Positions 16,214 through 20,376 of a stretch of DNA of 64,000 bases are shown piece after piece. The notes beneath the pieces were generated by a model. The model was not told where the DNA came from and made no database searches. It saw only the letters and a list, made by a program, of their open reading frames with translations. Numbering within the stretch: position 1 is the stretch's first letter; every line of letters begins with the position of its first letter. The DNA is from a virus: positions 1 through 64,000 of IMG/VR virus record IMGVR_UViG_3300042307_002096, one strand, 5' to 3'. Both the position numbers and the translations under genes were made by a program.

Positions 16214-16241
16214 TTGACTGTCCGTTTTATTGAGTGATAAT
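16214..16241 (+). promoter_or_regulatory. Sigma70-like promoter with TGTCC element
   Basis: TTGACTGTCC (16214-16223; here TGTCC overlaps the last base of the -35) and GATAAT/TAATAT around 16236-16243. It serves the RNA ligase gene and possibly the tmRNA beyond. Confidence 0.6.
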
Positions 16242-16248
16242 ATTAGCT

Positions 16249-17253
16249 ATGAAACTAGCAACAATTGAAACAATCAAATCGCTAAAGAAGCATCCAAACG
16301 CTGACAAGCTTGAAATTGCTCAGATTCTTGGCTGGCAATCAGTTGTCCAATCTGGGATACACAAAGAGGGAGATAAAGTCGTCTTTATTGTAATTGACTC
16401 GATTGTTCCTCGTTGTCAATGGTCCGAATTTTTAGTCGATCAAAAAAATCCAGACAAACCAATTCGTTTGAAGATGATCAAGCTCAGAGGAGAACACTCT
16501 GCTGGTATTGTTATTCCGCTTAGTCAGCTTCCAGCTTCTTTTGAGTTGTATGATACTGGAACAGACGTTACTGAATTACTTGGCGTGCAAAAATATATTA
16601 AAGAACTTCCTGCTAGTCTTGGTGGAGAAAATGTTGGAAACTTTCCTACACACATTGCTTCCAAAACAGACGAAGATAACGGATTGTCTGATCCTAAACT
16701 CGTAGAGGAAGTTATTAAACAACATTTAACCATTACTCAAAAATTGGATGGATCAAGCTGTACGGTTGTTGTAGAAGACGGAGTCATTACACAAGTTTGT
16801 TCTCGTAATTTATCAAAGAAAGAAACTGATAAGAGTGCATTCTGGAATGCTGCAAAAAAACTTTCTATTTTGCCTGGATTTACTGGAGTTATCCAAGGAG
16901 AGCTTTGTGGACCTGGTATTCAGCAAAATACTCTTCGTCTTTCTGAGCCGGAACTTTTTGTATTTCAAGTTAAAAAACAAGACGGCAATTATATGAACTA
17001 CCAAGAGATGAAAGGGTTCTGTAATGTGGAATTAAAATGCAATGTCGTGCCTCTTATTGTTGAAACGTCATTTGTTGGATGTGATACTGACGTGGCTATC
17101 TCAAAGCTTCAAGATCTGGCTGACCAACAATTACTTCCAAACAAGAATCCAGCAGAAGGAATTGTAGTTCGCCCTACGGCTTATCCTAGGTCGTACGAGA
17201 GCCGGAGGCCACTGGGATTTAAAATTATTAACAGAAATTATAAAGATACCTGA
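16249..17253 (+). CDS. RNA ligase, DRB0094/Rnl5-like family
   Basis: ATG at 16249 is chosen because an upstream start lies in the promoter. The 334-residue product has the N-terminal domain typical of this family (KSLKKHPNADKLEIAQI), then the nucleotidyltransferase motif I ITQKLDGSSCTVVV with the adenylated Lys. Downstream are GVIQGELCGPG, EGIVVRP and GFKIINRNY, matching motifs III-V. It should seal nicked or broken RNA. Its place beside the tmRNA and tRNA cluster suggests tRNA repair, or sealing after processing. Confidence 0.88.
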   Translation: MKLATIETIKSLKKHPNADKLEIAQILGWQSVVQSGIHKEGDKVVFIVIDSIVPRCQWSEFLVDQKNPDKPIRLKMIKLRGEHSAGIVIPLSQLPASFELYDTGTDVTELLGVQKYIKELPASLGGENVGNFPTHIASKTDEDNGLSDPKLVEEVIKQHLTITQKLDGSSCTVVVEDGVITQVCSRNLSKKETDKSAFWNAAKKLSILPGFTGVIQGELCGPGIQQNTLRLSEPELFVFQVKKQDGNYMNYQEMKGFCNVELKCNVVPLIVETSFVGCDTDVAISKLQDLADQQLLPNKNPAEGIVVRPTAYPRSYESRRPLGFKIINRNYKDT

Positions 17254-17287: not shown

Positions 17288-17751
17288 GGGGGTGTACTGG
17301 TTTCGACAAATGGTTGAAATTAAAAGTGCATGTAGAGGTTGATCGATGGCCTCTTTAAAAATCGATTAAAAAAACTAAACGCAGAATCTAATAATTCTGA
17401 TCTCCTAACTGAAGCTGAATATATCTTCAACAACGCCGACGAAATTCTCGCTGGTGCTGAAGAGTTTTCACTAGCAGCCTAAGAGCCTTATACTGGATCC
17501 TCTAAAAGTATTTGGAAAATGCAGAGGGGTTGCAGTGAGTAGGTGTCTAGCAACAGAAAAGCAACAAGACCTATCGGCAATGGATGTACGATAATATCCA
17601 TAGGTAGACATAAAATACGCGGTTAGTACAACCAAACGACCTAGTGTCCGTGTTACCGCAAGGTGATTGAAACGTTGAATGTACTCAAGCATGTGAAGAT
17701 CTTTTAACGTAAGTTATTTGGACAGGGGTTCGATTCCCCTCACCTCCACCA
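17288..17751 (+). ncRNA. ssrA: tmRNA (one-piece, SsrA)
   Basis: The 5' end GGGGGTGTACTGGTTTCGAC and 3' end GGGGTTCGATTCCCC-T-CACCTCCACCA form the tRNA-like domain (7-bp acceptor, T-arm, encoded CCA). The tag frame begins at GCA 17381, 94 nt from the 5' end as in E. coli, and runs 33 codons to TAA 17480-17482. The tag is acidic and ends EEFSLAA, keeping the LAA degron. Many known tags are 8-15 residues. The rest (17483-17700) holds the pseudoknot region. A partner ClpC is encoded at 10520. Confidence 0.93.
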
Positions 17752-19304: not shown

Positions 19305-19391
19305 CCCGGAGTGTGAGAAGTCTGGTATCTCAGTGCGCTCATAACGCACCGCCTACGTGCCTCGCAGGTTCAAATCCTGCCTCCGGAACCA
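19305..19391 (+). tRNA. tRNA-Met (CAT), initiator-like
   Basis: Anticodon stem GTGCG/CGCAC, loop CTCATAA. Position 1-72 is a C-A mismatch (CCCGGAG/CTCCGGA), a hallmark of bacterial initiator tRNA. The D-loop AGTCTGGTA and T-loop TTCAAAT nearly match E. coli tRNA-fMet, and A73-CCA is encoded. Odd points: the variable region is 14 nt (19350-19363) instead of 5, one extra base precedes the D-stem, and the three inner stem pairs are G-C, C-G, G-C rather than three G-C in a row. Confidence 0.8.
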
Positions 19392-20130
19392 TTTGACAAA
19401 ATTTGTTAAATTCTTGTTCAACAAATTTTTTATTAAATTTTCCTAAATCTTTTATAATGTACGGAACGTAACCGTTTTTTACAATTGCTAGTTGTTTTAA
19501 ACGGTCTCGATTTTGAACTTGTAATAAAGAATGTCGTTTAGTTATTTGTTTATAATGCCAAGCACCGTTCCACAAAATTGCAATTTTAAAATCTGGTATT
19601 ATAACATCAGCGTCCCATCCCTCAAACAAAGGCTCATTGTGAAGTACGTTTGCAAATTTGGCTTTACAAAGTTCATAAAAATATATTTCATTTTTGCTCC
19701 GTTTAATTTGTCTGGATGCGGAAACCAACCCTCCAATTCTAGCTCCTTCTTTTTTTCTTTGGGTCGAGCAACCTTCAGAACATGTTTTTCTTTTATGCAA
19801 AGATTCAATTTTCGTCTTACAAACAACGCACTCATACGTCTTCAATGTTTTTGCTTTATATTTTTTATATACTTTTTTTGTTGAAAAAGGAGTTGTCTTT
19901 GTTCGTTGTTTGTTATTAAAAGTTGCAGCACAAGAACGAGAGCAAAATTTTGTATTTTTTCCGTTATTTCTTAATTGCTGATAAGACAATATGCTGTTGC
20001 AGTTTAAGCAGCTTTTAGGATTAGATTTGTACTCTTCTACTCTTTTTTGGTATTGTTCTTTTTGATACTTGCCGGCTCCATTGATATATCTATGGTCCGG
20101 TTTGTTGTTTAACTCTAATCTGTTTTTCAT
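19339..20130 (-). CDS. Vsr/PD-(D/E)XK-type endonuclease with zinc fingers
   Basis: A 263-residue protein with two zinc-binding units (CLNCNS...CSRSC and CVVCKT...CSEGC). A C-terminal nuclease-like domain follows: NEIYFYELCKAKF, DADVIIPDFKIAILWNGAWHY, RDRLKQLAIVKNGY, as in Vsr-like homing endonucleases (EDxHD type). The last ~17 residues (EAGFEPARH...) are the antisense of the tRNA-Met T-arm, so the original stop seems lost or the gene overlaps the tRNA. Probably a free-standing homing endonuclease beside a tRNA. Confidence 0.75.
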   Translation of the reverse strand: MKNRLELNNKPDHRYINGAGKYQKEQYQKRVEEYKSNPKSCLNCNSILSYQQLRNNGKNTKFCSRSCAATFNNKQRTKTTPFSTKKVYKKYKAKTLKTYECVVCKTKIESLHKRKTCSEGCSTQRKKEGARIGGLVSASRQIKRSKNEIYFYELCKAKFANVLHNEPLFEGWDADVIIPDFKIAILWNGAWHYKQITKRHSLLQVQNRDRLKQLAIVKNGYVPYIIKDLGKFNKKFVEQEFNKFCQMVPEAGFEPARHVGGAL

Positions 20131-20269: not shown

Positions 20270-20376
20270 GCCCTGTTAGCTCAGAGGTAGAGCAACGGTT
20301 TTGTGAGTTGTCAGCCTTTTGTCGGACAATTCTCATAAACCGTCGGTCATCCGTTCAAATCGGATACGGGGCTCCA
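20270..20376 (+). tRNA. tRNA-Thr (TGT) with 32-nt anticodon-loop insert
   Basis: Everything outside the insert is canonical: acceptor GCCCTGT/ACGGGGC, D-arm, anticodon stem ACGGT/ACCGT, variable CGGTC, T-arm ATCCG-TTCAAAT-CGGAT, T73 and CCA. The loop reads TTTGT then 32 nt (20305-20336) then AA, so an intron-like hairpin lies directly after anticodon TGT (20302-20304). The insert pairs TGAG/CTCA and TTGTC/GACAA, extending the anticodon arm. Boundaries are ambiguous by one or two bases. Confidence 0.85.

Follow-up and report, generated by a model that had tools for sequence, protein, structure and literature searches.

A transfer RNA (tRNA) gene interrupted by a short hairpin was analysed in a 64,000-nt stretch of viral DNA, positions 1 to 64,000 of the IMG/VR record IMGVR_UViG_3300042307_002096 (hereafter the window). 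The gene is a tRNA-Thr(UGU) that carries 32 extra nucleotides in its anticodon loop, and it consists of three parts:

20270-20304, + strand: 5' half of tRNA-Thr(UGU) with the anticodon TGT (20302-20304) at its end, placed by alignment to the insert-free tRNA-Thr of two relatives (L002 and L004) and by Rfam
20305-20336, + strand: 32-nt hairpin insert (putative intron) between positions 36 and 37, placed by the alignment gap against the insert-free relatives and by its fold
20337-20376, + strand: 3' half of tRNA-Thr with the CCA encoded, placed by sequence and Rfam

The original prediction described a tRNA that is intact outside the loop and 32 nt directly following the TGT, and this was borne out, as all stems are paired throughout (acceptor 7/7, D stem 4/4, anticodon stem 5/5, T stem 5/5). 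U33 and A37 are present, and the insert is followed by AA (20337-20338) and then ACCGT. The Rfam tRNA model scored the gene at 52.3 bits with the 32 nt treated as an insertion; ARAGORN missed it in a default run and mislabelled it as tRNA-His in intron mode. The junction has a 1-nt ambiguity and can be read as TTTTGT/GAG..CAT/AA or TTTTG/TGAG..CTCA/TAA. Within this ambiguity the insert lies between 36 and 37 and leaves YTNNNAA, and its excision gives the exact standard 7-nt loop.

Sequence alignments showed that L002 and L004 possess a syntenic tRNA-Thr without the insert, the empty site being TTTTGTAAACCGT. Their DNA ligase is 77-79% identical to that of the window phage, and the Met-Thr-Asn-Arg-ligase order is the same. 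The acceptor and T stems of the window tRNA differ from those of L002 and L004 by double, pair-keeping changes; the tRNA body was therefore either maintained as a tRNA or exchanged for a different intact one.

In bacterial tRNAs, group I introns occupy the anticodon loop and have a terminal G. The Rfam matches in the window were tRNA and tmRNA only, without a group I ribozyme core or any intron family, consistent with the earlier judgement that the element is too short for a group I or II intron. Because the insert is 32 nt long, lacks a ribozyme core and a terminal G, and has no match in Rfam, the group I reading was rejected. The original prediction also offered an anticodon-nuclease decoy. 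On this reading, the unspliced tRNA would be a decoy or would resist an anticodon nuclease, with the insert concealing or imitating the anticodon loop. This explanation found no evidence and is improbable, as decoding with a 39-nt anticodon loop is not to be expected, removal of the insert restores a normal loop, and nothing points to a nuclease target.

Fold of the insert

The whole window pre-tRNA folded better than all of its shuffles (z -4.0, 0/200), and shuffling of the insert alone gave z -2.7 (6/300). The window hairpin is real, and its support is moderate. The best fold (-18.4 kcal/mol) has 8 bp, a 12-nt region and a 3' tail of 4 nt, and the outermost pair of the insert is offset by 4. 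This model departs slightly from the helices proposed earlier. An alternative fold (-15.6 kcal/mol) contains a 1-nt bulge, 5 bp, a 2-nt bulge and a further 5 bp, and offset 2 occurs in the window only in the outer 3 bp of this offset-2-like alternative. The last insert bases can also pair with anticodon bases 35-36 through U36-A and G35-U, at a probability of ~0.2.

In a bulge-helix-bulge (BHB) motif, the splice sites lie within the bulges. A loose likeness to this archaeal signal had been proposed for the insert, and possible anticodon-intron pairing and a location near position 37 would suit an archaeal- or eukaryotic-type intron cut by the tRNA splicing endonuclease. However, the motif comprises a 4-bp helix between two 3-nt bulges (PMC4090602), whereas the window bulges measure 1 and 2 nt, the junction is 36/37, and the junctions given by the empty site fall outside the bulges. 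Moreover, the splicing endonuclease family PF01974 was found in 0/15 phage records, with archaeal controls positive. The likeness did not survive these comparisons, and the BHB reading was rejected as scarcely credible.

Inserts at the same site in other phages

IMG/VR was scanned for tRNAs with extra sequence between the D and T arms, and the scans returned many tRNA-like elements plus clean anticodon-loop inserts. Clean hairpins at 36/37 were obtained in tRNA-Thr(UGU) (L211, L217), tRNA-Gly(GCC) (L033, L057, L215, L225), tRNA-Arg(UCU) (L187 and Aeromonas phage PX29) and tRNA-Thr(GGU) (L533, in the same 543-kb phage as L215); the junctions of L215 and L225 have a 1-nt ambiguity. A scan anchored on TTTGT yielded, among the matches listed, no new class member after filtering, and two narrower scans added nothing to the known members; their one other match, L223, was read as adjoining tRNA segments when inspected and was left out of the count.

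The outermost insert-insert pair lies at offset 2 in 11/11 hairpins folded beside the window and also in L533, although these strict-class hairpins were chosen from the candidates as clean, so that their uniformity is partly selected and is not an unbiased test. In the junction-paired members, the first insert nucleotide is paired with the antepenultimate one, and the final two are usually paired with anticodon bases 36 and 35; in the inserts of L215 and L225 (Gly) and L533 (Thr), base 34 pairs with the last base instead. A scan of genome contigs returned mostly archaeal introns, which served as a matched control with an offset mode of 3 and offset 2 in 3/71. Homology among the inserts was tested with structure-keeping shuffles over 136 insert pairs, and relatedness between isotypes was detected for L217 (Thr) with Aeh1 (Arg; 0/1000), L217 (Thr) with L057 (Gly; 1/1000), and the two inserts (Gly and Thr) of the 543-kb phage G004 (0/1000). 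The latter phage carries on its minus strand tRNA-Thr(GGU) (L533, 80120-80280) and tRNA-Gly(GCC) (L534, 79160-79310), ~1 kb apart with homologous 36/37 inserts.

The class could be followed most closely in T4-like phages of Aeromonas, in which the tRNA occupies one syntenic place after gene 57B. In phiAS5 the site is empty, and PX29, AsFcp_2, avDM12, Ah1, Aeh1, AsFcp_4, phiWae14 and Ahp1 carry the insert. Across six distinct inserts, pairing was found at 55/60 cells in register 2, with 9 extra pair types, compared with 20-29 cells and 0-4 extra pair types in other registers. This covariation indicates that the Aeromonas phage hairpin is kept with compensatory changes, i.e., under selection. 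Two existing annotations are also affected: L370 805-904 (PX29, annotated as a two-piece tRNA-Lys) and L374 804-908 (Aeh1, annotated as tRNA-Glu) both correspond to Arg(UCU) after removal of the insert.

An assembly error in the metagenomic contig would explain why this particular insert occurs in one record only. It is nevertheless hardly probable, as inserts of the same kind occur in isolate genomes, the loop left after excision is exact, and pairing between the insert and the anticodon is possible.

Other structures were returned by the same scans. Anticodon-loop inserts resembling a nested mini-tRNA, with an acceptor-like stem, a T arm and a terminal CCA on or close to the 3' junction, were seen in L118 (4269-4358, - strand), L234 (4667-4763, - strand), L245 (327-424, - strand) and L100 (22-90, + strand); these could be released by RNase P plus 3' tRNA processing. 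Further tRNA-like elements, grouped into families (L024, L025, L045, L046, L059, L082; L054, L062, L088; L013, L049, L065, L075), come from viral contigs; their acceptor and T stems are good and their D arm is that of a tRNA, but a normal anticodon arm is missing. Such elements from the first broad scan were set aside.

RNA ligases and the proposed removal of the insert

A candidate exon ligase is encoded in the window, 3.0 kb upstream of the tRNA rather than at the 4 kb estimated earlier:

16252-17253, + strand (gene 16234-17253): ATP-dependent RNA ligase, candidate exon ligase (PF09414 with the PHA02142 OB fold; phrog_968)

The window record matches both PF09414 and PF09511. A second ATP-dependent RNA ligase, of the T4 Rnl1 type, lies at 73.8 kb of the 78-kb record, beyond the window. 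The window ligase (PF09414) had no matches in the records of L002, L003 and L004, and the 217-kb record of L004 contains neither family. Among records of at least 70 kb, with either family over its cut-off and inserts of all junctions included, an RNA ligase was present in 14/17 insert-bearing records and 6/23 tRNA-array controls (Fisher p = 0.001), a count in which the G018 match is marginal and the carriers G020 and G021 have the same insert. In the strict class the figure was 7/8 (p = 0.004), and contigs from the TTTGT scan, a less fair control than the tRNA-array contigs, gave 4/15. Two other enzymes were tried and rejected as common partners, namely RtcB, found in 1/24 records only (G004), and a phage-encoded RNase III (PF00636), found in 0/15.

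These results suggested a possible route for removal of the insert. In the transcript, the insert would lengthen the anticodon stem into a long hairpin, and its 3' end could form pairs with anticodon bases 35-36. Both junctions would then be cut by a double-strand-specific endonuclease, for which host RNase III is the leading candidate, to leave 5'-P and 3'-OH ends, following which the phage ATP-dependent RNA ligase would seal the 3'-OH of U36 to the 5'-P of A37. RNase III products carry a 2-nt 3' overhang. This enzyme is proposed because, with the stem of the strict class offset by two, an exact cut there would release a hairpin with such an overhang, and because RNase III excises the intervening sequences of 23S rRNA, there without ligation (PMC4990558).

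On the comparison of sequences, it appears fairly probable that this phage tRNA-Thr is functional and that its 32-nt element at 36/37 is a short tRNA intron spliced by proteins. The window insert shares with the class its site, the restoration of the loop, the ligases and the possible pairing with anticodon bases 35-36, and it probably acts like the 36/37 hairpins while standing outside the strict class, which has register offset 2 and a stem of ~10 bp where the best window fold has offset 4 and 8 bp. Among the three options of the original prediction, splicing by some route is the best, given the recurrent site, the covariation of the Aeromonas hairpin and the association with RNA ligases.

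Beside the selection of clean hairpins described above, several points weigh against protein splicing. The insert is absent from both closest relatives, no homology between its sequence and the other inserts could be detected (best 42/1000 in the structure-keeping shuffles), and it favours offset 4, with P for offset 2 at ~0.2. In other candidates the insertion falls at 33/34 to 35/36 or the register differs, showing that anticodon-loop inserts are heterogeneous. RNA ligases have other roles, and their association with the inserts may reflect phage lineage. As RNase III was absent from all 15 records, a host enzyme would have to act.

The first two of these points, together with the moderate support and off-register stem of the hairpin, would also fit a recent disabling insertion, whereby the tRNA-Thr would be a young pseudogene whose body has yet to decay. 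Excision that restores the exact standard 7-nt loop, last insert bases able to pair with anticodon 35-36, and a site identical to that of a class conserved elsewhere make this unlikely. The dead gene suggested by the original prediction is further weakened by the intact, compensated stems, yet it keeps on its side the absence of the insert from two close relatives and of any detectable sequence relative. Excision without ligation, leaving a split tRNA held by structure, has a precedent in the hairpin inserts of 23S rRNA that RNase III cuts and that stay unligated (PMC4990558). It is quite improbable for the window, as decoding by a nicked anticodon loop would be expected to be poor and RNA ligases are enriched in the carriers.

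One neighbour of the interrupted gene suggests another origin of the insert:

19339-20130, - strand: HNH-endonuclease-like ORF (open reading frame), possible freestanding homing endonuclease, between tRNA-Met and tRNA-Thr

L002 and L004 have ~4 bp in place of this ORF, and the insert could be a scar that shields the tRNA-Thr gene from the endonuclease. As the hairpin, the exact restoration of the loop and the recurrence in other phages would be left unexplained, a scar is very unlikely. The ORF overlaps, on the opposite strand, a tRNA at 19305-19391 with a CAT anticodon and a long variable arm, absent from the Rfam matches that passed the gathering score. The tmRNA of the window phage lies at 17288-17751, and a 33-nt segment at its 3' end (17717-17749) matches Synechococcus phage S-CAM1 exactly and was the sole match in a search for close named relatives.

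Tentatively, and with a probability short of even, phages may carry a family of tiny introns that moves between isotypes, sits at 36/37, matches its last bases to the anticodon and is removed by an RNase III-type nuclease plus a phage RNA ligase. If true, this would constitute a protein-dependent route of tRNA splicing in bacteria, distinct from group I and BHB introns, and would give phage RNA ligases a splicing job other than repair.

Comparison with known systems

Phage tRNA introns were reported in 2019 with no mechanism for their removal, and no paper giving their splicing mechanism was found in the open-access literature searched. In Lak megaphages, tRNAs including tRNA-Thr(TGT) have introns that were termed enigmatic (Devoto et al. 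2019; PMC6784885); an offset of one nucleotide from the predicted site was reported, and the tRNA-Thr intron may itself encode a tRNA (PMC6784885). Lak phages and the window are alike in a phage tRNA-Thr(TGT) with an insert, while two long Lak-A1 tRNA matches (L528, L529) do not resemble the strict hairpins.

Archaeal and eukaryotic pre-tRNA introns share with the window the anticodon-loop site, anticodon-intron pairing and removal by proteins, the last proposed here, but they occupy the canonical position 37/38 and in archaea form a BHB, neither of which is found in the window. Group I introns of bacterial tRNAs agree with it in the anticodon-loop site and differ in the ribozyme core and terminal G that the 32-nt insert does not have. 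The intervening sequences of 23S rRNA are likewise hairpin inserts in a structured RNA. Their excision by RNase III is demonstrated, whereas it is only proposed for the window, and they are much longer (428 nt in Coxiella) and stay unligated, in contrast to the ligation proposed for the window tRNA.

A further likeness is to the inserts of the Aeromonas T4-like phages (PX29, Aeh1, Ah1, AsFcp_4, phiWae14, Ahp1), in which a 36/37 hairpin is likewise followed by AA and the last bases pair with the anticodon, as is possible in the window. The Aeromonas inserts lie in tRNA-Arg(UCU), measure 26-28 nt, keep a strict offset 2 and are retained across genera, whereas the window insert lies in tRNA-Thr, measures 32 nt and has a looser register. 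The comparison allows a class to be defined by its exact junction, by covariation, by the specific geometry of its product and by its association with an enzyme, and the isolated Aeromonas phages that carry it make the question of splicing directly testable.
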